Shown here piece after piece: positions 1-25,497 of a DNA stretch of 64,000 bases. Both the position numbers and the translations under genes were made by a program. Positions within the stretch are counted from its first letter, which is position 1. Every line of letters starts with the position of its first letter. The notes below the pieces were generated by a model, which saw nothing but the letters and a program-made list of their open reading frames with translations, had not been told where the DNA came from and searched no databases. Source of the stretch: Asticcacaulis sp. ZE23SCel15 (GTDB lineage Bacteria; Pseudomonadota; Alphaproteobacteria; Caulobacterales; Caulobacteraceae). Where the stretch lies: the NCBI RefSeq assembly GCF_030505395.1, contig NZ_CP130044.1, forward strand, positions 419,001-483,000, given 5' to 3'.

Positions 1-969
1 ATGATGAAGGTCATCTACGATGTCATTGCGCGCGATACGCTCATCGAAAAGGTTGACCGAGAACTGGCCAGATCGCTGCTTGATACGCTCCGACATCTAC
101 CCACCAATGTCTCAAAGCGTTTCCCTACGATGGGCGCAAAAGCCGCTGCGGAAATGGCGAAGGCCAATGGCCTGAAAGACCTGCTCGGCCCCATCAGCAT
201 CAATAAGTATATGGCGATCCTGTCCAGCATCATGAACTTCGCCTTGAACGAAGGCTATGTGGATCGCAATCCATGTCGCGGGCTTCGGGTTCTTGACCCG
301 GTGAAACTCAAAGACAAGCGAATGCCGTACTCCGATGATCAGCTACGCCGGATTTTCAGCAGCCCTATCTACACGACCGAGGCCGAAGCCTACCGCCATA
401 CAGCAAAGTTCTGGGTGCCTCTAATTGGCCTGTATTCGGGAATGCGGCTCAATGAAACCTGCGCGCTTGATACCGCCGATGTTGCGGAAATCGATGGCAT
501 CCTCGCGTTCGTGGTCAGCGAGAGTAGCGACAAGTCGCTCAAAACTGAGGCAAGCAAACGAATCATTCCTGTTCACAAAGACCTACTGGAAATGGGCTTT
601 GCCTGCTTTGTCGAACACCGCCGCCAAAGCGGTAAAAGGAAACTGTTCCCCGATCTAACCCGTGCGCCAAATGGCTCCTATAGCAAGGAGTTCAGCAAAT
701 GGTATTCCCGTTTTATGCGGAAAATTGGGGTTCAAAGAACGGGCGACAAGACCTGCTATCATAGCCATCGCCACGTGTTTCGAGATGCGTTGAGAAATGC
801 CAAAATCGAACACGAAATCAGCTTGGCATTAGGGGGTTGGACGAACACAAACAAAGGAAATGTTCATGCGAACTATGGCAACGGACACGATGTGCGGACA
901 TTGAAAACCGCCATAGATACAATATGTTACTCAAACCTCAGCTTGTTATCTCTTCTGGAAGGTCGATAG
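1..969 (+). CDS. Tyrosine site-specific recombinase (integrase), 5' end outside window
   Basis: Phage- or island-type integrase that cuts and rejoins DNA through a catalytic tyrosine. The C-terminal catalytic domain is intact: the first Arg is in SGMRLNE (about residue 149), the H-x-x-R box is in HSHRHVFRD (about 254-262), the later Trp is in GGW (about 280) and the nucleophile Tyr is in NYG (about 292). The open frame starts at base 1 and the arm-binding N-terminus typical of about 400-residue relatives is missing, so the gene probably begins upstream of the window. Its last 32 bases overlap the 3' end of the convergent HNH gene. It marks the region as a likely integrated island. Confidence 0.85.
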   Translation: MMKVIYDVIARDTLIEKVDRELARSLLDTLRHLPTNVSKRFPTMGAKAAAEMAKANGLKDLLGPISINKYMAILSSIMNFALNEGYVDRNPCRGLRVLDPVKLKDKRMPYSDDQLRRIFSSPIYTTEAEAYRHTAKFWVPLIGLYSGMRLNETCALDTADVAEIDGILAFVVSESSDKSLKTEASKRIIPVHKDLLEMGFACFVEHRRQSGKRKLFPDLTRAPNGSYSKEFSKWYSRFMRKIGVQRTGDKTCYHSHRHVFRDALRNAKIEHEISLALGGWTNTNKGNVHANYGNGHDVRTLKTAIDTICYSNLSLLSLLEGR

Positions 970-1603
970 ACACTTGTTTTATTATGCATCGAGTCATAGC
1001 AGCATACTGGGCGGACGGTGCGGCTTCTACCAAAAGTAAATCCTCATACAGAGCCCGTCTGACATTTATAGGTAAACTCACGTCCAAAATCTGTAGGAAT
1101 ATTGTCATGACCCTGTCCGCTCTTTCATTGCGTGTTTCTACGAGTTCTGCGCGATGAAGTCTGAGAATAGCGCGTGTGGCCAAACCAGACTGGGTGTTAG
1201 CGAAGATCATGCCCCCTAAAAAAACAAAATGCTCTTCAGGATTAACTTCGTATGGATCGATTATGCTCTCAACGTTTGGATCGTTGTTGGTCTTAAATTG
1301 GTTGCAGACCTCACATGCAAGTGTGAGGTTTTCCCACTCGAACGTCTTCTTCACATCAAGCGATTTTGGATAAATATGCTCTACGTCCCCATGATGGACA
1401 TGACGAAACTTACTTTCGCAATAGGCGCATTTTTCATGAGTTTCCAGAAGCAGTTCTGATTTAACATCAGGATGTCGATAGCGGCTTTTTTCGTATGCTG
1501 TAGGGGTCTCACCTGCATCCATCTTATCCTGCAAAACCTTAAGCCAACGAGCCTCGTTGTCTGTTAAAATTTGCGGCTTTGGTCGTTTTTCAAGCTTTAT
1601 CAT
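938..1603 (-). CDS. HNH endonuclease, PtuB/TIGR02646-like
   Basis: A 221-residue protein with a zinc-ribbon HNH nuclease core: CAYC (Cys59, Cys62), then DVEHIYPKS (His76), WENL (Asn92) and CEVCN (Cys97, Cys100, Asn101). This arrangement matches the HNH partner of Septu-type anti-phage pairs and of PtuAB-like retron effectors (family knowledge). Its start codon overlaps the stop of the upstream ATPase gene (ATGA, 1600-1603), so the two are translationally coupled and probably act as one complex. The residues after about 125 are a helical tail without a recognised motif. Base composition is AT-rich compared with the genes after 3.5 kb, consistent with transfer. A role in defence is inferred from pairing and context. 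Confidence 0.82.
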   Translation of the reverse strand: MIKLEKRPKPQILTDNEARWLKVLQDKMDAGETPTAYEKSRYRHPDVKSELLLETHEKCAYCESKFRHVHHGDVEHIYPKSLDVKKTFEWENLTLACEVCNQFKTNNDPNVESIIDPYEVNPEEHFVFLGGMIFANTQSGLATRAILRLHRAELVETRNERADRVMTIFLQILDVSLPINVRRALYEDLLLVEAAPSAQYAAMTRCIIKQVSIDLPEEITS

Positions 1604-2847
1604 TGCTTCGACATGCGGCTCAACAGATCGGAATAAAATTCGCCCAACCCCATGCTATTTAGGCGTAATCTCAACTCCGCAATTCTACCAGCATTCAAGT
1701 TTTCCAAGCTATATTCCGAAGCGATCTGTTCAATTTGATCCTCTGCCCATAAAGGCAGTGTTACCGGGACGCCGAGAACACTACGAAGAATTTCACTCGC
1801 TGGCCCTGCTTTATTCACATTATCAAGTTTTTCAGAATATACAGCGCTTTTAACACCCTCAAAAAACTCTCCATCCCTGTAACGCAAGGCGTATACATGT
1901 GAATCTCTAACGGATGAAACAACAAATGGACTATGAGTTGCAATAATTAGCTGCGCATTCGGAAATGCAGATATTAAATTGGATATGATATTTCTTTGCA
2001 TTGATGGGTGGAGATGATTTTCTGGCTCATCTATCAATACCGAAAATTCTGATTTTCCTCTTGAGTATAGGAATATTTGCCATGCAATATCTATAAGTGC
2101 CATCAAACCGCCAGACGCCGCATCGATCACAAATTCACCAGTTTTCGTGACTATAACAACATCTGGTATTCTGATACTTATATCTACAAATCCAATAGAT
2201 TTGGGTAGTATTTTAGCCAAAACTATTTTGAATTCTTCGTATGTTGCTTCCAACTCATCATTTTTTTGGACATTTTTGTTCCCCGGACCAAACGTAGCCA
2301 TTGAAATAATGGCCTCTTTAATCCTATAGACGGGGGAAAATTGAGTATAACCATTGTTATATTTATTCTGAACTTCTTGGCTATACGACTGATATGCCTG
2401 CTGTGCATTGATCGCATTAGTCGGAATGTTGGATATAGCCTGATAATTATTCACAGGCCTGTGAGACGCTATATACAACCCATCAACTGACATCATGTTC
2501 TCAATCTGGACGTTGTAACTAATCGAACCAGATTGGGGAATAATTATGCGAGAGCTATGATCGTTCCAATAATCGATACGACCAACACTTTGGGCATTAT
2601 TCTGTTCCGTCTCTTTTTTAGAGCGGTCAAAAAGTCCAAATATGTAGGACCATGTCCCAGTTTTTCCTGAAGCCACTGGTGTGGCAAGCAGACTGTAGTT
2701 CACGCCAAAATGCTGCGAGAGAATTCTCAACAAGGTGCTTTTGCCCGCACCATTCGACCCAGCCAAGATTGTCAGTCTTGGGTGGAACTCAAGCTGCACA
2801 TCATCGAACTGACGCCATCCCGCCACTTTCAGTGATTTGAACCGCAT
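1600..2847 (-). CDS. AAA/ABC-type ATPase, PtuA-like, partner of the HNH protein
   Basis: A 415-residue SMC/ABC-like ATPase. Walker A is GSNGAGKST (residues 30-38), an SGG signature-like element lies near residue 245, Walker B is LIDEPENHLHP (about 268-278) and the switch histidine is in ATHSPFVVSS (about 303). This is the OLD/RecF-like layout used by PtuA of Septu and by many defence ATPases. The central part (about 60-230) is variable and AT-rich. It is the first gene of a two-gene minus-strand operon with the HNH nuclease. No reverse transcriptase lies in view, so a plain Septu-like pair is more likely than a retron. A stand-alone OLD-type nuclease is unlikely because no Toprim domain follows. 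Confidence 0.8.
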   Translation of the reverse strand: MRFKSLKVAGWRQFDDVQLEFHPRLTILAGSNGAGKSTLLRILSQHFGVNYSLLATPVASGKTGTWSYIFGLFDRSKKETEQNNAQSVGRIDYWNDHSSRIIIPQSGSISYNVQIENMMSVDGLYIASHRPVNNYQAISNIPTNAINAQQAYQSYSQEVQNKYNNGYTQFSPVYRIKEAIISMATFGPGNKNVQKNDELEATYEEFKIVLAKILPKSIGFVDISIRIPDVVIVTKTGEFVIDAASGGLMALIDIAWQIFLYSRGKSEFSVLIDEPENHLHPSMQRNIISNLISAFPNAQLIIATHSPFVVSSVRDSHVYALRYRDGEFFEGVKSAVYSEKLDNVNKAGPASEILRSVLGVPVTLPLWAEDQIEQIASEYSLENLNAGRIAELRLRLNSMGLGEFYSDLLSRMSKQ

Positions 2848-3010
2848 TTACTTCCCCAAGTTTTTCGCAGCTTACGATTGCCTCAAAGCCTAATGCAAGC
2901 GTTTTCCCGACTATCCCCTGTACATGTTGGGGCACCTTCCATTTCACATAGAACATCTGGCCTCGGACGATTAGCCCAGAGCCTTTCCTGATGGTCTTAC
3001 GACGATGGGG
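2801..3010 (-). pseudogene. Remnant of an integrase N-terminus (DUF6538-like)
   Basis: In this minus-strand frame a stretch reads LIVRGQMFYVKWKVPQHVQG, which has the look of the N-terminal domain of phage-like integrases (RGxxYYVRRxVPxxLQ pattern). Homology stops after about 50 residues, near VGKT, and the frame then runs into the start of the ATPase gene, where it ends at 2801. No catalytic domain follows on this strand. The open frame upstream (to 3427) is low-complexity and passes through the GTGGCACA repeats, so it is probably not coding. The likeliest reading is a second integrase gene truncated by acquisition or rearrangement of the ATPase-HNH cassette. Confidence 0.5.
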
Positions 3011-3184
3011 AAAGATGATCGGCTCATGATCGCCCAGACCGTGCTTAAGCCTGTTTCCAGCATCCTGAGAGGGCTTCGTCGAGGCTTGTGCTGAAGGTCT
3101 CGTGCGGGCCGGGTTCTTCGCCTGCGGCCCTTCATGGGAAGGCTTGCGCCCCAATATTTCTAAGGACCGGGAATTATAGCCTTG

Positions 3185-3288
3185 GTGGCACAGTGAAGTG
3201 GCACAGTCGGAATCGTCTCCAACCCTTGTGGGATAAGGGTTTCCGAACGATGTAAAACTGTCTGGGTGGCACAGCGTGGTGGCACAAT
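3185..3288. other. Putative recombination (att-like) region with paired direct repeats
   Basis: Four copies of GTGGCACA occur as two pairs, at 3185 and 3198 and at 3266 and 3279. The spacing inside each pair is exactly 13 bases. Between the pairs lies a perfect inverted repeat, AACCCTT-N7-AAGGGTT (3221-3241). Seven-base arms around a seven-base centre match the geometry of a tyrosine-recombinase core site, and paired direct repeats on both sides resemble arm-type sites. The integrase remnant lies just downstream on the minus strand. That this is an attachment site is inference. Confidence 0.45.
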
Positions 3289-3558
3289 AACCGTCAAAAA
3301 AAGAGGGGCTTATAGCCTTCTCATTGATTTTGAACGATAAATTGTCGGGATTTGGGAGATTGGAGCGGATGGAGGGACCGGGCACCCGGTTCTTGGGTGC
3401 AGTCTTGGCAGCGATGATCTGGGGCATGATCGGCCTTCATGATGGGGAATCGGATGCCTCATCTGATCACGCCGCCAGATCGTTTACCATATGCCCCAGT
3501 GGGGTTGTCCGCGATAATCCGATGGACACGTTACGCCCAAGAGCCATACATATGAGAA

Positions 3559-4989
3559 ATGGCCTCTAAAACGACCCTGAACGCTGCTAATCTTGAAGCG
3601 CTTGGCGCGGAGCGTCTCTCTAACTTACTGATGGAAATCAGCGCCGGTGATGCAAATGCAAAGCGGCGACTTCGCATGGAATTGGCCGGTAAGGACAGCC
3701 CGGAAAAACTGATCGCTGAGATACGCAAACGCCTGACCTCTGTCTCTGAGGCTGAGACGAACATCGGGTGGCGCTCACTCAAAGCATTTCGCGCCGATCT
3801 TCAAAGCCTTCGCCAGTTAATTGAGGGACAGGTCGCGCCCGCTGCCCCTATTGAGGCGTTGGCCCTGATGGGACAATTGCTGGGCATGAGCAACCGCGTG
3901 CTTGAGCGAGCCAATGACAGTTCCGGTGAAACGCTAAACCTGTTCAGGCAGGCGGCGATTGTTTTCGGCGAGATCGCAGGACAGGCTAAGCCCGCCTTAG
4001 CCGATCTTGTTCCTCTGGCAGCGAACCTGTTGATTCATAGCGGCTATGGTCAGGCCGATAGTCTGGTGACCAGTCTGTCCTCAAGTTTGGGGTCGGAGGG
4101 GTTAAACGCGCTACGCTCACAGCTTGAAGCGTTGGCCGCCTTGCCTGAGAAGGCGATACCGCCCCCGACCCGACGCGGATCAAAATGGCGGCGCAATCGC
4201 ACGCTGGAATATAGTGCGGTCCGTCGTCGCGCACGTGGCGAAACGGTTCGCGTCGCGCTGGAAGCCATAGCTGATGAGTTGGGGGATGTGGACGCATATA
4301 TAGCGTTGCAGCCATCTCGACGGACCCTTGCAACAACGCTGCGCATTGCGGAGCGGCAGTTGCGCGCCGGACGCCCCGGAGAGGCACTGACCGCCTTGGA
4401 CAAGGTGACCGAGCCTCTGCGCGACCGGCCCGCGGAATGGACGAACCTGCGCATCGAGGCTCTACAAGCCGACGGGCAGAACGAGGCAGCACAAAGTCTC
4501 AGGCTGAGCACATTTCACGCGACTTTGTGCGCAAGTTTACTACGTGATTATCTCAAACGACTGCCCGACTTTGACGACATTGAAGCGGAAGACGAAGCTC
4601 TGGATCGCGCCATGGCGCACCCGGACGCCAGCCTTGCGCTTGATCTATTGATTTCGTGGCCGTCTCCGGAACGTGCCGCGAAGATGGTTCTTTTGCGCGC
4701 TAATAATATCAACGGGGAAAGTGAAGCGGCCTTAGTGGCCGCGGCGGATAGGCTGGCGCTGCGCTACCCTCTGGCGGCTACACTTTTGCTTCGAAAATGC
4801 GTTGAGGCGATCCTTCAAATGGCACGAAGCGACCGCTACAAAGCCGCCGCCGCGGCGGTTTGGGAAACGGAACGACTGGCAGCGCATAGCGATGATTTCG
4901 CCCAGTTTGAGGATCATACCGCATGGCTCAAGGCCCTGCGTGATACTTACCGACACAGACGGGATTTCTGGCAAGAAGTTGATGCCTGA
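3559..4989 (+). CDS. DUF6880 family protein
   Basis: A 476-residue, alanine- and leucine-rich, mostly helical soluble protein. The opening (ASKTTLNAANLEALGAERLS) and the following block (LLMEISAGDANAKRRLRMEL) match my recollection of the DUF6880 family found in Caulobacterales and sphingomonads. No signal peptide, membrane segment or catalytic motif is visible. Residues about 240-460 have a repeat-like helical-hairpin pattern reminiscent of TPR or HEAT folds. The biochemical role is unknown. It stands alone on the plus strand next to the att-like region, so it may be either island cargo or the first chromosomal gene after the island. Confidence 0.75.
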   Translation: MASKTTLNAANLEALGAERLSNLLMEISAGDANAKRRLRMELAGKDSPEKLIAEIRKRLTSVSEAETNIGWRSLKAFRADLQSLRQLIEGQVAPAAPIEALALMGQLLGMSNRVLERANDSSGETLNLFRQAAIVFGEIAGQAKPALADLVPLAANLLIHSGYGQADSLVTSLSSSLGSEGLNALRSQLEALAALPEKAIPPPTRRGSKWRRNRTLEYSAVRRRARGETVRVALEAIADELGDVDAYIALQPSRRTLATTLRIAERQLRAGRPGEALTALDKVTEPLRDRPAEWTNLRIEALQADGQNEAAQSLRLSTFHATLCASLLRDYLKRLPDFDDIEAEDEALDRAMAHPDASLALDLLISWPSPERAAKMVLLRANNINGESEAALVAAADRLALRYPLAATLLLRKCVEAILQMARSDRYKAAAAAVWETERLAAHSDDFAQFEDHTAWLKALRDTYRHRRDFWQEVDA

Positions 4990-5078
4990 GGCTATGAGTG
5001 CGCCGCTTAGTGTAACTGGCTTTGACGGCAAGGGTCCACAAAGATATTATTACGAACGACGGAGACCTCCGGTCAACG

Positions 5079-5231: not shown

Positions 5232-5294
5232 GGCCCTACCACTTCTTCGTGATAGCTCTTGGCAAAATAAAAATGACGCCCCCGCCCCTTAAAC

Positions 5295-6228: not shown

Positions 6229-7008
6229 TCAGTATGTATAGGCTCCGTCGATTGCGGCCCGAAGATCGTCGCTATAATTCCCAGCGTCTTTGAGCGCTTT
6301 TTTTAACTGCTGGGCCAAATGGGGTTTCAGGCACTTCATGGCAGGCTCAGGATCAATACCTTTGGCGGCGATATAAAGGGCGGCATCGAACACCAGGTCA
6401 CGTTCCGGCAAATAACCGCTTTTGCGGCCCTGCCACCCTTGCGTACCGGTTCCGGCATCTCGCCATTGCTCGAAAACAAAGGCGCTATTGGCCATAAACA
6501 CACCGAAACCCAGAAAGCAGGCGGTCTGATCCGTCAGAAATTCAATCTCTTCGGGCGCGCACGGTAAGGTATCCGCCACAGAATGCAGCAAATAATGGGC
6601 TAACTCATGCGCAAAGGTGGCGATCAGGTTTGCGGGCGTTTTCAGAAGCTGCGGAGCGTAGCTGATCTGAACCGGCCCCTGATGGTCATGCATGAACATA
6701 CCCAGCGGCGTTTGGCGGGACGTGGCCTGAACAAGATCGGCGTTAGGTTCATATATCTGAACATCACTGACCAGTTGAACCGGCCAGTCTTCCATGCCTG
6801 CATATTTTTTGACCTGAGCAAAAATAGCCTCGGCAAGGGCATGGCCAGTTTTATCACCTGTCACGAAAAACCCTGGCGTCGGCAGGATCATTTTTGTCTC
6901 AGTAAAACTGGGGGTGTTGGCGAGATTGCGAATTAGCCAGCACATATTGTCAACGTGCCATCGCGCCGTATCGTGATCCAGAAACGGCGCCTCTTTAAAT
7001 GGCCACAT
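6229..7008 (-). CDS. Hypothetical protein with a HEXXH zincin-like motif
   Basis: A 259-residue soluble protein of unknown function. FAHELAHYLLH (about residues 133-143) is a HEXXH zinc-metallopeptidase-type motif, and an acidic stretch, PEEIEFLTDQTACF, follows about 15 residues later and could supply the third ligand. No signal peptide or membrane helix is clear, so it is probably cytoplasmic. GGAG lies just before the ATG. It starts MWPFK, similar to the MWPL start of the unrelated protein at 37623-38159. It stands between ArsR and a phosphatase-fold arsenate reductase, but no functional link is evident. The peptidase assignment rests on the motif only. Confidence 0.65.
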   Translation of the reverse strand: MWPFKEAPFLDHDTARWHVDNMCWLIRNLANTPSFTETKMILPTPGFFVTGDKTGHALAEAIFAQVKKYAGMEDWPVQLVSDVQIYEPNADLVQATSRQTPLGMFMHDHQGPVQISYAPQLLKTPANLIATFAHELAHYLLHSVADTLPCAPEEIEFLTDQTACFLGFGVFMANSAFVFEQWRDAGTGTQGWQGRKSGYLPERDLVFDAALYIAAKGIDPEPAMKCLKPHLAQQLKKALKDAGNYSDDLRAAIDGAYTY

Positions 7009-7071
7009 GATGACTCCGCTGCGAAAACAACCTGAGCTTAATGCTGTTAAGCGAAAGGTGTTATGTGACCG

Positions 7072-7590
7072 TTAAGATGCCAGCCGGAAGGCTTCCTCGC
7101 CCATCCGCTCCAGACGACCGCGCAGCGGCATGAATGCCTTTAAGGCCTCATCCGACATCTGCGACAGCGTATCGATCCGGCTCGACAGACGCGCGAACAT
7201 GTCGCCATAAGCCTGCGCCACGACGCTTTTGGAATCGCTCAGATCGCTGGGGTCGGGCAGGAACCAGTCGATGACCATCGGCGCGCCCTTGAAATCCGGC
7301 CAGTGGCCGTCCTGCGGCACATGGTGCGACAGACGAAAGATGAAATCAAACACCGGCGCGTCATCGGCAACCATGGTCTCCACCGGCTTGGGCGACAGCT
7401 TTGAGAGGGTATAGTTGATCTTTTGCAGCAACCCGACGGCGAAAGGACTGATCAATCCGGCCGGCGTGATACCCGCCGAATGAGCCTCAAATCGCCCGGC
7501 CCCCAGCCGGTTCAACAGGGCCTCGGCCATGATCGACCGCGCCGAATTATGCTCACACAGGAACAAAACCTTATATGCCTGAAACCCCAT
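7072..7590 (-). CDS. Low-molecular-weight phosphatase-fold arsenate reductase-like protein
   Basis: Belongs to the LMW protein-tyrosine-phosphatase/thioredoxin-type ArsC superfamily. The N-terminal VLFLCEHNSARSIMAEALLN holds the C-x5-R phosphate-binding loop, and DWFLPDPSDL (about residues 109-118) carries the general-acid aspartate region (DPS). It would reduce arsenate with thioredoxin- or mycothiol-type chemistry, or act as a phosphatase. The start was set at 7590 because AAGGTGAGG precedes that ATG; an upstream start at 7632 adds 14 unlikely residues. It is the second ArsC-type protein within 2.5 kb and is evolutionarily unrelated to the glutaredoxin-type one. Confidence 0.8.
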   Translation of the reverse strand: MGFQAYKVLFLCEHNSARSIMAEALLNRLGAGRFEAHSAGITPAGLISPFAVGLLQKINYTLSKLSPKPVETMVADDAPVFDFIFRLSHHVPQDGHWPDFKGAPMVIDWFLPDPSDLSDSKSVVAQAYGDMFARLSSRIDTLSQMSDEALKAFMPLRGRLERMGEEAFRLAS

Positions 7591-7695
7591 GACGCCCTCA
7601 CCTTGATTATTTTGGGAACCCTTATCCCGCATAACAAGGTTACACCATCAGGTTTAGTTTAAGGTTTACAGACACGGTTAAGCAAAACTGAACAA

Positions 7696-7738
7696 GCGCA
7701 TGCCAAAAAGTGTGAAGCGGTTTTTGGAAACAATGCGC
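7696..7738. repeat. GCGCAT...ATGCGC palindromic repeat, copy 1
   Basis: Terminal inverted repeats GCGCAT/ATGCGC enclose CCAAAAA-GTGTGAAGCGG-TTTTTGG, itself an inverted repeat. Related units lie at 29460-29503 and 31690-31753. It sits between the arsC-like gene and ctrA. Confidence 0.65.
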
Positions 7739-7765
7739 GGTAAAAAACGCAAAGGGCATATAAAA

Positions 7766-7795
7766 AGCGCCCGTCGGGAGGGGCCGACGGGCGCT
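7766..7795 (-). terminator. Rho-independent terminator of ctrA
   Basis: A perfect 12-base stem (AGCGCCCGTCGG paired with CCGACGGGCGCT) with a six-base loop, followed on the minus strand by a run of T. It lies 52 bases after the ctrA stop codon. Confidence 0.88.
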
Positions 7796-7847
7796 CAGTC
7801 ACCTTTGCGAATCCGAAAGGTGATAACGTAATCTATGTATCCGTAGC

Positions 7848-8549
7848 TTAAGCGGCGACGGTACCGCCGACTTCGGACGGATCGCGCAGGACGTAGCCAC
7901 GGCCCCAGACGGTTTCGATATAGTGGTTGCCCGAAGCGGCCACGGCCAGCTTCTTGCGCAGCTTACAGATGAACACGTCGATGATCTTAAGTTCAGGCTC
8001 GTCCATGCCGCCGTACAGGTGGTTCAGGAACATTTCCTTGGTCAGCGTCGTGCCCTTACGCAGGGACAAAAGCTCAAGCATTTCATATTCTTTGCCGGTC
8101 AGGTGCACGCGGTTGCCAGACACTTCGACTGTCTTGGCGTCCAGATTGACAATGATGTCGCCGGTCTTGATCACCGATTGGGCATGGCCCTTGGAGCGGC
8201 GGACCACAGCGTGAATACGCGCGATCATTTCGTCTTTGTGGAACGGCTTGGTCATGTAGTCGTCAGCGCCGTTGCCCAGGGTCTTAACCTTGGTGTCGAT
8301 TTCAGACGTGCCCGACAGGATCATGATCGGCGTATTGATCTTGCCCACGCGCAACTGGCGCAGCACTTCGACGCCTGACATATCCGGCAGCGAAAGGTCC
8401 AGCAGGATCAGGTCGTAATCGTAGATCTTACCCAGATCCACGCCCTCTTCGCCCAGATCGGTCGTGTAGACGTTAAAACCTTCCGACTTAAGCATCAATT
8501 CGATGCTTTGCGCGGTCGCGCTGTCGTCCTCAATCAATAAAACTCGCAT
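7848..8549 (-). CDS. ctrA: Cell-cycle response regulator CtrA
   Basis: The master OmpR-type regulator of cell cycle, flagella and chromosome replication in Caulobacterales. The 233-residue product is near-identical over long stretches to Caulobacter CtrA as I recall it. It has a receiver domain with acidic pocket EDD (7-9), phospho-acceptor Asp51 in [11 protein letters not shown] and Lys in MTKPF, then a winged-helix DNA-binding domain ending [10 protein letters not shown]. The C-terminus is VAA, matching the Ala-Ala tail used for ClpXP-dependent turnover (family knowledge). ATG 8549 was chosen over the TTG one codon upstream. It is expressed alone, with its own promoter region and terminator. 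Likely targets in this window are fliI, fliF and sciP. Confidence 0.98.
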
Positions 8550-8602
8550 CAAGCCCCTCCGGCGTTGGGAACGAGGTCAGGGCAACATGCCCAAACCATT
8601 CG

Positions 8603-8660
8603 TTAACAAGCTAAAACGAAAATCCCTTAAGATTCGTTAAGCTTACCCGAATATTGATTC
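8603..8660 (-). promoter_or_regulatory. Candidate ctrA promoter region with GANTC and TTAA motifs
   Basis: Upstream of ctrA lie two GATTC sites (8631-8635 and 8656-8660), targets of the CcrM-type GANTC methylase, and TTAA half-sites at 8603, 8627 and 8637. The last two form TTAA-N6-TTAA around one GANTC. A further GAATC lies at 8755. In Caulobacter the ctrA P1 promoter is methylation-sensitive and autoregulated, so the layout fits. The rest of the 340-base gap shows no gene. Confidence 0.5.
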
Positions 8661-8892
8661 GTAGAGTGATTTGCAACTCACCCACAAGGCCGGTAAGTCA
8701 ACAATTCTATTTATTAACAGGATAAATATGTGCATTTTTTGGCACTAAGTCTTCGAATCACAGCGGGGAACCCCCGCGGGTGAAACTTGGAGCGGGCGGC
8801 AAGGACAGCTTTTTCGCAAACACACAATTGCGCTTGTAACTCCGGGAAAAGAGTTGAATAAATTCAGGCAATAACAATAATCGGGGGGAACT

Positions 8893-10086
8893 ATGTCAGA
8901 ACAACCTGCGCCCGTCGCGCGCAACGAAGCGGTCGATGTCTTGCGCGCCTTTGCCATTTTCGGCGTCTTTGCGGTTCACATTGCCGATCAGTTCGAGCTT
9001 TATTACGCCCATATGACGCCCGACCCCCTGACCGGGTTTGTGCTGACCTACATCATGGGTAAGTCGTTTTCGCTGCTGGCCCTGTGTTTTGGTTTAAGCT
9101 TTTTTGTCCTGATGGACCGCGAAGCGCATAAGGGCGGGGATTTTTCCGGCCGGTTTGCCTGGCGCATGGCCGTGCTGGCAATCATCGGCGTGGTGCATGG
9201 GGCGCTGTACCGGGGCGATGTGCTGACAGTTTTAGCCCCGATCGGGCTGGTGCTGATCCCGTTTCATCGGGTGCGCCAGAACGGGATACTGATTGCCATC
9301 GCCGCCATACTGATCCTGCAGCCGTTTATTTTCTATCAGACACTCAGCGCCGTAAGCGGTGCCGACTGGGCCAATGCCAAGCCCAACTTCTGGAATGGCG
9401 GCAGTTTTGACGCCTATCAGCATGGGACGTTTATCGATGTCATCCGCTACAACCTGTTTGAAGGTCAGTACCCAAAATGGTGGTTTTTCCTTGAAACCGG
9501 GCGGGTGGCGCAAATCGCGGGCCTGTTCCTGATTGGCATGGTTCTGGGCCGCATCGGCTTTTTCGATCAGCCGCAGAGGTATGCGACGGCGCGGCGTATA
9601 TGGCTGGTGGTTTTGGCCGCCCTGTCTGTGGCGCTCATCATTTATAAACCGGCGCTAATCGCGCTGGCCCCGACCGCGCATAGCCCGGTTATGGCTGGGG
9701 CCCTGTCGAATATGATATTAAGCGGGTGGACAGACCTGACGCTGATGGGCGTTTACGTGCTGGTGATCCTTGAGCTGTTTTACGGGTTCGCAGGGTCAGG
9801 CTTGCGCGTTCTTGTCCCCGCCGGACGCATGACCTTAAGTCTTTATGTGTTTCAGGCCGTGGTGTGGGTGCCGGTCTATTATGGCTTCGGCCTGGGCGGG
9901 TGGGCATGGCTGACACCGCCGACGGCCATGCTGTGGGGTGCAGCCTTCTTTGTGGCCGAAGTCATCTTCGCCCAGCTGTGGCTTAAGCGCTTCTATTACG
10001 GCCCGCTGGAATGGGTCTGGCGCGCGGCGACCCAGATGAGTGTTATGGTGCCGTTTCGGCGCGCACTAACACAGGGTAAAATATGA
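8893..10086 (+). CDS. DUF418 family membrane protein (YeiB-like)
   Basis: A 397-residue polytopic inner-membrane protein with about 8-10 hydrophobic segments. The opening RNEAVDVLRAFAIFGVFAVH is the N-terminal signature of DUF418/YeiB proteins (VDxLRGFAxxGI), and KRFYYGPLEWVWRAAT near the C-terminus is the family's W.KRF..GPLEWLWR motif. The function is not established; it resembles acyltransferase-3 and heparan N-acetyltransferase-like membrane enzymes. A strong purine-rich GGGGGGAAC precedes the ATG. The stop overlaps the start of the small downstream gene, so the two are probably co-translated. Confidence 0.85.
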   Translation: MSEQPAPVARNEAVDVLRAFAIFGVFAVHIADQFELYYAHMTPDPLTGFVLTYIMGKSFSLLALCFGLSFFVLMDREAHKGGDFSGRFAWRMAVLAIIGVVHGALYRGDVLTVLAPIGLVLIPFHRVRQNGILIAIAAILILQPFIFYQTLSAVSGADWANAKPNFWNGGSFDAYQHGTFIDVIRYNLFEGQYPKWWFFLETGRVAQIAGLFLIGMVLGRIGFFDQPQRYATARRIWLVVLAALSVALIIYKPALIALAPTAHSPVMAGALSNMILSGWTDLTLMGVYVLVILELFYGFAGSGLRVLVPAGRMTLSLYVFQAVVWVPVYYGFGLGGWAWLTPPTAMLWGAAFFVAEVIFAQLWLKRFYYGPLEWVWRAATQMSVMVPFRRALTQGKI

Positions 10087-24126: not shown

Positions 24127-25497
24127 TTACGCCGCGTTGGCACCGGACTGTGGCGCGGGCACGGGCACACCGGCGTCGGAATATTCTTTCAGCTTATTGC
24201 GCAGGGTGCGGATCGAAATCCCTAAAATATTAGCCGCATGGGTGCGGTTGCCCAGACAGTGCGACAGGGTATCCAGAATCAAAACCTGCTCGACCTGCGC
24301 CACCGTTGACCCCACAAAGGTGCGCGCGGCACTCTCGGCGGCTTGCGCGGCACGACCCACATAATCAAGGCCAATCGGGGCCTCGACATTGAGCGGCTTA
24401 CCGTCGGGTAGGCGAATAGCCTCGGCATCAATCTCAGAGCCTGCCGACAACAGCACCGCGCGGTGCATGGCATTTTCCAGTTCACGGACATTGCCTGGCC
24501 AGTTATGGGCCTGAAGGCGGCGACGGGCCTCATTCGACAGGGGCTTAAGGGCAATGCCGTTGGCCTCTGAGTATTTCTTAGCGAAGAATTCCGACAGGGC
24601 CATGATATCGGCCGGACGTTCCCGAAGCGGCGGTAGTGCCAGATTGATGACGTTCAGGCGGTAGAGCAAATCTTCGCGGAAAGTGCCTTCCTTAACCGCG
24701 ACGCTAAGATTGCGGTTGGAGGTCGCCAGCACGCGGATATTGACCGGCACAGGCTTGGCCCCGCCAACGCGGTCGATGACCCGCTCCTGCAACGCGCGCA
24801 ACAGCTTGGCCTGCAAACGGGCATCCATTTCCGAGATTTCATCGAGCAGCAACGTGCCGCCATCGGCTTCTTCGAACTTACCGATGCGACGGGCCATAGC
24901 GCCGGTGAACGCGCCTTTCTCGTGGCCGAACAGTTCCGATTCCAGCAGGTTATCAGGGATGGCCGCGCAGTTGACCGAGATGAACGGTTTTTGGGCGCGC
25001 TTAGATTTTTCGTGCAGGTAGCGGGCCATGACCTCTTTACCGACGCCGGACTTACCGGTGATGAGGATCGAGGCATCGGAGCCTGCGACCTGGTCGGCCA
25101 GTTTCAGCACCTGCTGCATGGCTGGATCTTGCGTCACTAAAGGGCGCCGATCATCGGCCACTGCGGCCAGCACGGCGGCAATCAGTTCGGCATCGGGCGG
25201 CAGCGGAATGAACTCCTTGGCCCCGGCGGTTATGGCTTGCGCGGCCTTACGCGGATCGGGATTGACGCCACAGGCCACGACCGTGATGTGGATGTGTTCC
25301 AGATCACACGACGCAATAAGCCCCGCAATATCCAGCTCATAATCGACCATCAGCAGGTCAGCGCCCTGACCTTTACGCAGGGCATCCAGCGCCTGCTGGC
25401 AGCCCTCGACATGGGACACCTTGGCCCCCGTATCCATCACCATCTTGACCGCGACCGACATCTGACCGCTTAATTTTCCGACTACTAATAGTCTCAT
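24127..25497 (-). CDS. flbD: Sigma-54-dependent flagellar regulator FlbD
   Basis: The NtrC-like activator of late flagellar genes in Caulobacterales. It has a degenerate N-terminal receiver-like domain (residues 1-115), then the AAA+ core with Walker A TGKSGVGKE, the sigma-54 contact loop GAFTGA and GGTLLLDEISEM, then a Fis-type helix-turn-helix NRTHAANILGISIRTLRNKL. It acts on sigma-54 promoters such as those at 34115 and 34311. It follows fliN by 17 bases in the fliF operon, as in Caulobacter. Activity is expected to be tuned by a FliX-type partner (family knowledge), which is not in this window. Confidence 0.97.
   Translation of the reverse strand: MRLLVVGKLSGQMSVAVKMVMDTGAKVSHVEGCQQALDALRKGQGADLLMVDYELDIAGLIASCDLEHIHITVVACGVNPDPRKAAQAITAGAKEFIPLPPDAELIAAVLAAVADDRRPLVTQDPAMQQVLKLADQVAGSDASILITGKSGVGKEVMARYLHEKSKRAQKPFISVNCAAIPDNLLESELFGHEKGAFTGAMARRIGKFEEADGGTLLLDEISEMDARLQAKLLRALQERVIDRVGGAKPVPVNIRVLATSNRNLSVAVKEGTFREDLLYRLNVINLALPPLRERPADIMALSEFFAKKYSEANGIALKPLSNEARRRLQAHNWPGNVRELENAMHRAVLLSAGSEIDAEAIRLPDGKPLNVEAPIGLDYVGRAAQAAESAARTFVGSTVAQVEQVLILDTLSHCLGNRTHAANILGISIRTLRNKLKEYSDAGVPVPAPQSGANAA

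Follow-up and report, generated by a model that had tools for sequence, protein, structure and literature searches.

A predicted type I Septu operon as putative cargo of tRNA-targeting integrase islands with an inverted second attachment site

The integrase-Septu locus

We analysed a 64,000-nucleotide stretch of the single-contig, 3.77-Mb genome of Asticcacaulis sp. ZE23SCel15 (contig NZ_CP130044.1, positions 419,001 to 483,000 of the forward strand; hereafter the window), near the left end of which a predicted Septu gene pair, ptuA and ptuB, adjoins a tyrosine integrase gene. The order at this locus is tRNA-Gly with the attachment core, the integrase gene (int, rightward), ptuB-ptuA (leftward), a truncated 5' end of int, an inverted copy of the core and a flank that we call F. 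The region is AT-rich, as the preliminary description of the window had noted: the GC content is 0.47-0.49 across positions 1-4000, compared with 0.535-0.642 in the remaining 2-kb steps. Where genomes and loci have to be told apart, they are cited by our own labels (G and L, the source genome being G000); negative coordinates lie ahead of the window.

The ptuA gene (1600..2847, minus strand) encodes 415 amino acids and ptuB (938..1603, minus strand) encodes 221; ptuB lies directly downstream of ptuA, with a 4-base overlap, and its 3' end converges on that of int, with an overlap of 32 bases. The preliminary description had recognized an ATPase and a zinc-ribbon HNH nuclease in the PtuA-PtuB layout, and all the elements on which it relied are present: Walker A at residue 30, SGG at 245, Walker B at 271 and the H-loop stretch at 303 of PtuA, as well as two CxxC pairs and an HNH Pfam match (E 1.9e-8) in PtuB. 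The hidden Markov model search that it had proposed gave as best PADLOC models those of Septu type I, namely PtuA1 (PDLC00290, E 1.5e-168, profile positions 1-410 of 414) and PtuB1 (PDLC00337, E 5e-73, positions 1-214 of 216). Neither an OLD nuclease nor an unrelated HNH protein emerged as the best homologue, and no OLD or GajA model is among the 25 best matches listed for PtuA. On the other hand, its suggestion of a divergent subtype has to be abandoned, since a single existing model covers each protein at nearly full length, and the middle of the ATPase and the C-terminal half of the HNH protein, which it had regarded as not obviously conserved, both hold invariant residues in four-row alignments. 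Four-row profiles also matched PtuA and PtuB chains of known structure, over part of the chain length only.

Four PtuA relatives with 36-44% identity, from Comamonas testosteroni and from plasmids of Vibrio tubiashii, Azoarcus and Paraglaciecola mesophila (the last one incomplete), are each followed by an HNH gene. The closest full-length plasmid relative (43%) resides on Vibrio tubiashii plasmid p251 (L011), where its neighbours are an integrase, a restriction endonuclease and a kinase/phosphatase pair. The source genome contains one match each for PtuA and PtuB, and no close copies of the pair were found elsewhere in 149 related genomes, the genome_contigs collection and the plasmid and phage records. 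PtuB matches occur in 6 of the 149 genomes, including the source genome, the other five being weak; genome_contigs, in a search restricted to six exact peptide patterns, yielded one locus with a relative of the pair; 44 plasmid records matched, four of which cover 80% of PtuA, all at less than 60% identity, and six phage records matched.

The NCBIfam models of retron-Ec78 PtuA and PtuB (NF041760, NF041761) match the pair with scores under the cut-off, the PtuAB of Retron I-A (Ec78/Eco7) being distant relatives. A retron effector was nonetheless rejected: unlike in Retron I-A, no reverse transcriptase is seen among the frames of at least 90 amino acids in L009 1-19000, which were read by eye and run against profiles in part, and an Rfam scan of L009 12500-19600 for a retron non-coding RNA matches tRNA only. 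Given the near-full-length PtuA1 and PtuB1 models, the HNH-paired relatives and the lack of a visible reverse transcriptase or non-coding RNA, the pair is, to judge from its sequence, an ordinary type I Septu, which shares with the known system the ATPase, the HNH nuclease, the overlapping operon and the models, and differs from it only in its genomic setting. According to the available text of PMC13096335, T6 infection in the presence of Septu EcB88 leads to cutting of tRNA-Tyr in the variable loop, and that of PMC11555353 links retron-Eco7 PtuAB to tRNA-Tyr degradation and abortive infection. By analogy with these studied examples, PtuAB of Asticcacaulis probably acts as an ATPase-controlled HNH nuclease that cuts tRNA upon infection.

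An inverted attachment region behind the integrase

The tyrosine recombinase beside the pair, likewise noticed in the preliminary description, turns out to be more than a neighbour, as it is part of a repeated arrangement. The whole int gene extends from -533 to 969 on the plus strand (1..969 being its 3' part); it starts 534 bases ahead of the window and encodes, from a TTG codon, a protein of 500 amino acids with DUF6538 (Pfam E 2.9e-13) and a weak Phage_integrase match. Upstream of int lies a 74-nt tRNA-Gly(CCC) gene (-840 to -767; L009 13160-13233), to the 3' end of which the inverted attachment core at 3361..3376 (minus strand) is identical. An integrase beside a tRNA gene, with the tRNA 3' end as the core, is the arrangement of a tRNA-targeted island.

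A 479-bp inverted repeat, with arms identical at 440 of 479 positions, brackets int and ptuAB. The left arm (-783 to -305) comprises the tRNA 3' end, a regulatory stretch and the first ~77 integrase codons; it is outside the window, within which the repeat is therefore not visible. The repeat starts 17 nt from the 3' end of tRNA-Gly, and because it begins in the tRNA 3' end, chance or an insertion sequence (IS) was rejected as its origin. The right arm (2899..3377, minus strand) contains the core, the regulatory stretch and the first ~77 integrase codons. A minus-strand frame (2801..3427) starts outside the core, crosses it and continues into a truncated integrase N-terminus, int'N. This frame overlaps the start of ptuA by 47 bases; its product has a weak DUF6538 match and is 92% identical to integrase residues 2-76. 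Two pairs of TGTGCCAC-type repeats, 81 bases apart (3181..3286, minus strand; families D1, I2 and I3, with D2 as the left-arm counterpart), are likely to be arm sites of the integrase.

Flank F (3378..3491, minus strand) lies outside the right arm. It has a relative in the inner right end of an island that G004 carries at the same tRNA: F and core bases together are 84.5% identical over 142 bp to that end, beside the direct attR core of G004. The right arm can therefore be read as F-core-int'N, an inverted joint resembling the attachment site attP. Since the extended core (up to 3 mismatches) occurs in the source genome once in each orientation, no direct far-end core (attR) was found there; such a core is present in G004, G301, G349, G211 and G250. 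The integrase found no match among viral contigs, and the right arm found none among plasmids. At the same tRNA-Gly, G004 (L039 9857-10720) carries a related integrase that is devoid of its middle and still forms one open frame (85% identity over residues 2-93 and 69% over 402-494).

Recurrence of the inverted integrase head

A search of 390 genomes of the family with the integrase gave 29 matches at E 1e-60 or better, in 25 genomes. Twenty of the matches were newly fetched and five had been fetched before (G000, G018, G030, G054, G020); G410:C30, G214:C18 and G289:C78 are not part of the survey, and a third match of G189 falls inside L138. The 20 fetched loci and eight earlier ones make up a survey of 28, exclusive of L097, L100 and L101 with broken or partial integrases and of the deleted integrase of G004. 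An inverted copy of the locus's own integrase head is present in 19 of the 28, and the inverted core itself is included in 14 of 16 loci in which the junctions were inspected; the target is tRNA-Gly, -Ala, -Val or -Arg in 13 of these 14. The point at which the integrase copy is truncated differs between elements.

G012, which belongs to the same genus, has the same head (88%), truncated at the same codon of the integrase. After it come a SoFic gene (PADLOC E 5.5e-120) and then an inverted 3' fragment of the integrase; the stretch where this fragment ends is presumably IS21-like, and no tRNA lies beside the G012 copy. A long repeat in L097 was dropped, as it consists of two copies of one gene, which we take to be a transposase, rather than an inverted head. 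In L138 (G189, oriented 6681-9153), the HipA gene lies next to two inverted heads and another, partial integrase, apparently an older relic of the same arrangement. Comparison of L140 with an empty site gave no clear join.

All 19 head loci fall into one clade of a 30-row integrase tree (24 rows, support 99/96), to which three loci without the head and two untestable ones also belong. Outside this clade are L102, L103 and four class-level relatives (35-38% identity), none of which has an inverted head, two of the four being on short contigs. The inverted-head label is clustered on the tree but does not form one clade (5 changes), a distribution that would fit one ancestral gain followed by losses; several independent gains are also possible.

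Complete islands with three cores

A core search was carried out in nine genomes plus extended stretches, G154 and G373 being untraceable on their contigs. In four islands, all in single-contig genomes (G301, G349, G211 and G250), the cores occur in the order +,-,+. A second copy of the flank F that adjoins the inner inverted core lies at the direct attR and extends over 1878 bp (100%) in G301, 1355 bp (100%) in G349, 1408 bp (100%) in G211 and 2347 bp (99.87%) in G250, and the int side of the inner copy matches at 273/273, 266/267, 281/283 and 316/316 positions, respectively. The inner copy therefore duplicates the circle junction in inverted orientation over 1.6-2.6 kb; in other words, it is F-core-int'N, a joint that otherwise exists only in the excised circle. 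A serine-resolvase gene lies within the duplicated stretch in L130 (G349) and L139 (G250).

The same islands bear on two alternatives. The repeat-bounded units measure 1.8-5.8 kb, as might a transposon-like unit that moves on its own and is bounded by long terminal inverted repeats. We consider such a unit very improbable, because its outer flank F is borne by the element and repeated at the direct attR in the four islands, and because the left ends of the 14 inverted-core loci are 13 tRNA genes and one island junction. Still harder to credit is an origin of the perfect inverted repeats in faulty assembly: L128, L133 and L143 do end at contig ends inside the repeat, but the layout recurs in the single-contig genomes G301, G349, G211, G250 and G189, and the arms differ by 8% in the Asticcacaulis locus, 9% in L142 and 28% in L096.

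Two further observations concern individual islands. The tRNA-Ala site of G211 (G211:C1 640773-706791) contains five direct cores with at most one mismatch and one island with an inverted core, which suggests a tandem array of islands. In L136 (G301, oriented 2860-4473), the integrase frame of the integrated island is open into the tRNA gene, with an ATG inside that gene, whereas translation from the circle form would start at an ATG in flank F.

Cargo of the slot

We use the term slot for the stretch between int and the inner copy; 20 slots are available, from the 19 head loci and G012. Sixteen are filled, and in eight of them the cargo is directed from F towards int: besides the Septu pair, these contain whole SoFic genes (G012 and L140), an OLD/GajA-like gene (L096), a deaminase-type gene with a dCTPase match at E 1.7e-146 (L139), an Mrr-domain gene (L145), an SLFN_AlbA_2 gene (L135) and a DUF5677 gene accompanied by a gene without a match (L133). 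Cargo pointing away from F comprises a HigB-like gene with a helix-turn-helix (HTH)/M78 partner and a PD-Lambda-2_B match (L128), HipA (L138) and genes without a match (L129, L134 and its like in L132, and L146). L142, which includes a SoFic fragment pointing away from F, and L143 hold genes of mixed direction, and L094, L130, L136 and L144 contain no convincing gene.

PADLOC matches below 1e-10 were obtained for 8 of the 20 slots, or 10 of 20 if HipA and SLFN_AlbA_2 are added, compared with one of ten ordinary window proteins used as a control; the search covered the slot frames apart from the third one in L128, most of those in L142 and L143, the copy in L132 and a 105-aa frame in L130. Because one control protein in ten matched, less weight attaches to PADLOC matches due solely to a domain of the ATPase or nuclease type (L096, L145), and the enrichment of defence genes in the slot is suggestive. 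A strong PADLOC match to RtcR/PspF (E 4e-107) is exhibited by the window protein encoded at 24127-25497 and probably arises through shared AAA and HTH domains, which calls for caution with single PADLOC matches. Some slot genes have no Pfam or PADLOC match at 0.001, namely those at 1716-2438 and 794-1711 (minus strand) of L129, 5293-6381 (minus strand) of L133 and 4484-4996 (plus strand) of L134; we regard these match-less genes of L129, L133 and L134 as candidate unknown defence genes.

Homogenisation of the arms and mosaic structure

The two arms are 100% identical in L129, L132, L134, L136, L139, L140, L145 and L146. L132 and L134 align collinearly across the slot and agree in the kind of cargo and in the breakpoints; their arms agree at 350/350 and 334/334 positions within each genome, as opposed to 280/333 between the genomes, which indicates that the arms were made alike after divergence, or remade. 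The alignment of L132 with L134 ends at the core, beyond which their F flanks are alike only at the level of shuffled sequences (0.59). L134 and L136, in turn, share F (0.84) and carry different cargo, the change again falling at the core.

Because L132 and L134 share cargo and not F, while L134 and L136 share F and not cargo, one may speculate about a natural platform for immunity cassettes, in which the mirrored attP would (a) offer the circle-form promoter to leftward cargo and (b) allow the integrase to swap the block of int plus cargo. We consider this extended scenario rather unlikely; ordinary recombination at the cores combined with homogenisation could yield the same mosaic.

Proposed working of the islands

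With moderate confidence, we propose that the type I Septu operon is cargo of tRNA-targeting tyrosine-integrase islands that carry an inverted second attP, and that the duplicated island-end promoter serves the cargo. In an ordinary integrative and conjugative element (ICE), the island-end promoter in F would feed int only after circularisation. Once duplicated and turned, it would supply the leftward cargo of the integrated island, for example ptuAB, and int, separated from F, would rely on the tRNA side. There is a precedent in ICEKp1, where, according to the available text of PMC13023037, integrated int depends on a tRNA promoter and excised int on a promoter at the 3' end.

The F flanks would fit a promoter at the island end that is accompanied by a start codon of its own. 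An ATG in F opens a frame that runs through the core in 10 of 15 flanks, and a GTTGAC stretch is found in 9 of the 15 (mean 0.53 and maximum 4 after shuffling). This stretch lies 64-69 bases before the frame-opening ATG in six tRNA-Ala/Val examples, and 56 bases before an ATG whose frame stops short in two closely related tRNA-Arg flanks.

Several observations weigh against this proposal. The purine-rich stretch immediately 5' of the ptuA ATG is likely the ribosome-binding site of ptuA itself, and ptuA may have its own promoter as well. Cargo that points away from F, in the same direction as int, occupies six of the 16 filled slots (L128, L129, L132, L134, L138, L146), two further slots are mixed and four of the 20 have no convincing gene, so that F cannot drive all cargo. 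The GTTGAC motif was selected after inspection of the sequences, and the F flanks are not independent of one another, being partly related. Nor is the three-core layout universal: an inverted core is missing from G030 and G181, where two exact direct cores occur, a single exact core is present in each of G085 and G226, and an exact direct core was not found for two sites of G189 or for G295, the closest in G189 being a two-mismatch copy 62 kb off. The inverted head is absent from nine of the 28 surveyed loci, among which L131 and L141 reach contig ends within 0.7 kb, L098 and L099 have truncated integrases, and L095, L102, L103, L137 and L147 are plain misses (L102 has a weak 65-base inverted match inside its own integrase and was counted as lacking the head). 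Three of the 19 heads amount to only 65-119 bp at a contig end, and that of L094 to 90 bp without the core. In the Asticcacaulis island itself, the arms are down to 92% identity, a direct attR is missing and F has no GTTGAC stretch, for which reasons this island may no longer be mobile.

Much of this would suit a neutral view, in which errors of replication or repair near attP gave rise to the inverted copy as a by-product, with cargo present by chance and nothing driven from F. The slots without a convincing gene, the six slots that face away from F, the variable truncation point of the integrase copy and the divergence of arms, to 92% in the Asticcacaulis locus and 72% in L096, are what errors of this kind might leave behind. 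However, the arrangement recurs across a well-supported integrase clade (19 of its 24 rows) and at different tRNA genes, and the inner copy is 99-100% identical in the four complete islands; we therefore hold a neutral origin to be possible, if doubtful.

The orientation of int is also relevant. The survey began from integrase matches and not from tRNAs, and the only state it encountered is int beside the tRNA, in 13 of the 14 inverted-core loci, while L135 follows the core of another island in a tandem array. This counts against our proposal; perhaps the reversed state, with int under F, would be unstable. For want of a reversed state, simple inversion by the integrase was rejected as the source of the layout. 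The uniform orientation also counts against an invertible switch, in which the integrase would flip the int-cargo segment and thereby alternate the gene facing F. Such a switch would account for inverted cores with identical, homogenised arms on both sides of int and cargo, but in view of the uniform orientation it appears improbable.

Comparison with known systems

The Septu pair would be an ordinary member of its type, and the novelty lies in the setting, a new variant of tRNA-targeting islands. Two inverted attP sites around a swappable cassette are familiar from MiMIC, in engineered fly lines, where they belong to one serine integrase. MiMIC is man-made, whereas the islands described here are natural and use a tyrosine integrase, and exchange of their cargo is something that we only infer. 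ICEKp1 and ICEclc resemble these islands in having int beside a tRNA and, according to the available text of PMC13023037, an island-end promoter that feeds int after circularisation; they differ in that the islands studied here contain an additional inverted copy of the circle junction beside the cargo, which that text does not mention. The IntY islands of Pseudomonas linked to transfer-messenger RNA (tmRNA) likewise combine a tyrosine integrase at an RNA gene with putative defence cargo and direct repeats (PMC12595487); the word "inverted" is absent from the main text of that paper. In the literature covered, mostly as titles and openings of abstracts with subscription papers and preprints outside the scope, we found no description of a natural inverted attP behind an integrase.

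An inverted int 5' end with the tRNA core behind int thus provides a fixed, searchable signature of a slot for single-operon defence and toxin-antitoxin genes, and new defence genes could be picked by position, the unknown cargo of L129, L133 and L132/L134 being examples. The layout also raises the question of why an island keeps a near-perfect inverted copy of attP, and whether this copy serves to express or to exchange the cargo.

Neighbouring genes and backbone

Ahead of tRNA-Gly lies a gene of the GcrA family (Pfam GcrA, E 4.3e-57), a family that fits Caulobacterales. On the other side, homology of the backbone to G004 and G013 resumes near window positions 5254-5280. In G013, which lacks this island, homology ends 10 bases past the tRNA and resumes at 5280, with ~680 unrelated bases in between.

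A DUF6880 gene (3559..4989, plus strand; Pfam E 7.7e-143) is located between flank F and the backbone, and its product has a weak, partial PADLOC match to PDC-S62 (E 2.8e-6). Another DUF6880 gene occurs near the mirrored head of G012 (L079 5132-6598), the two being ~31% alike, and DUF6880 matches are present in 14 of the 25 genomes of the genus, the source genome included.

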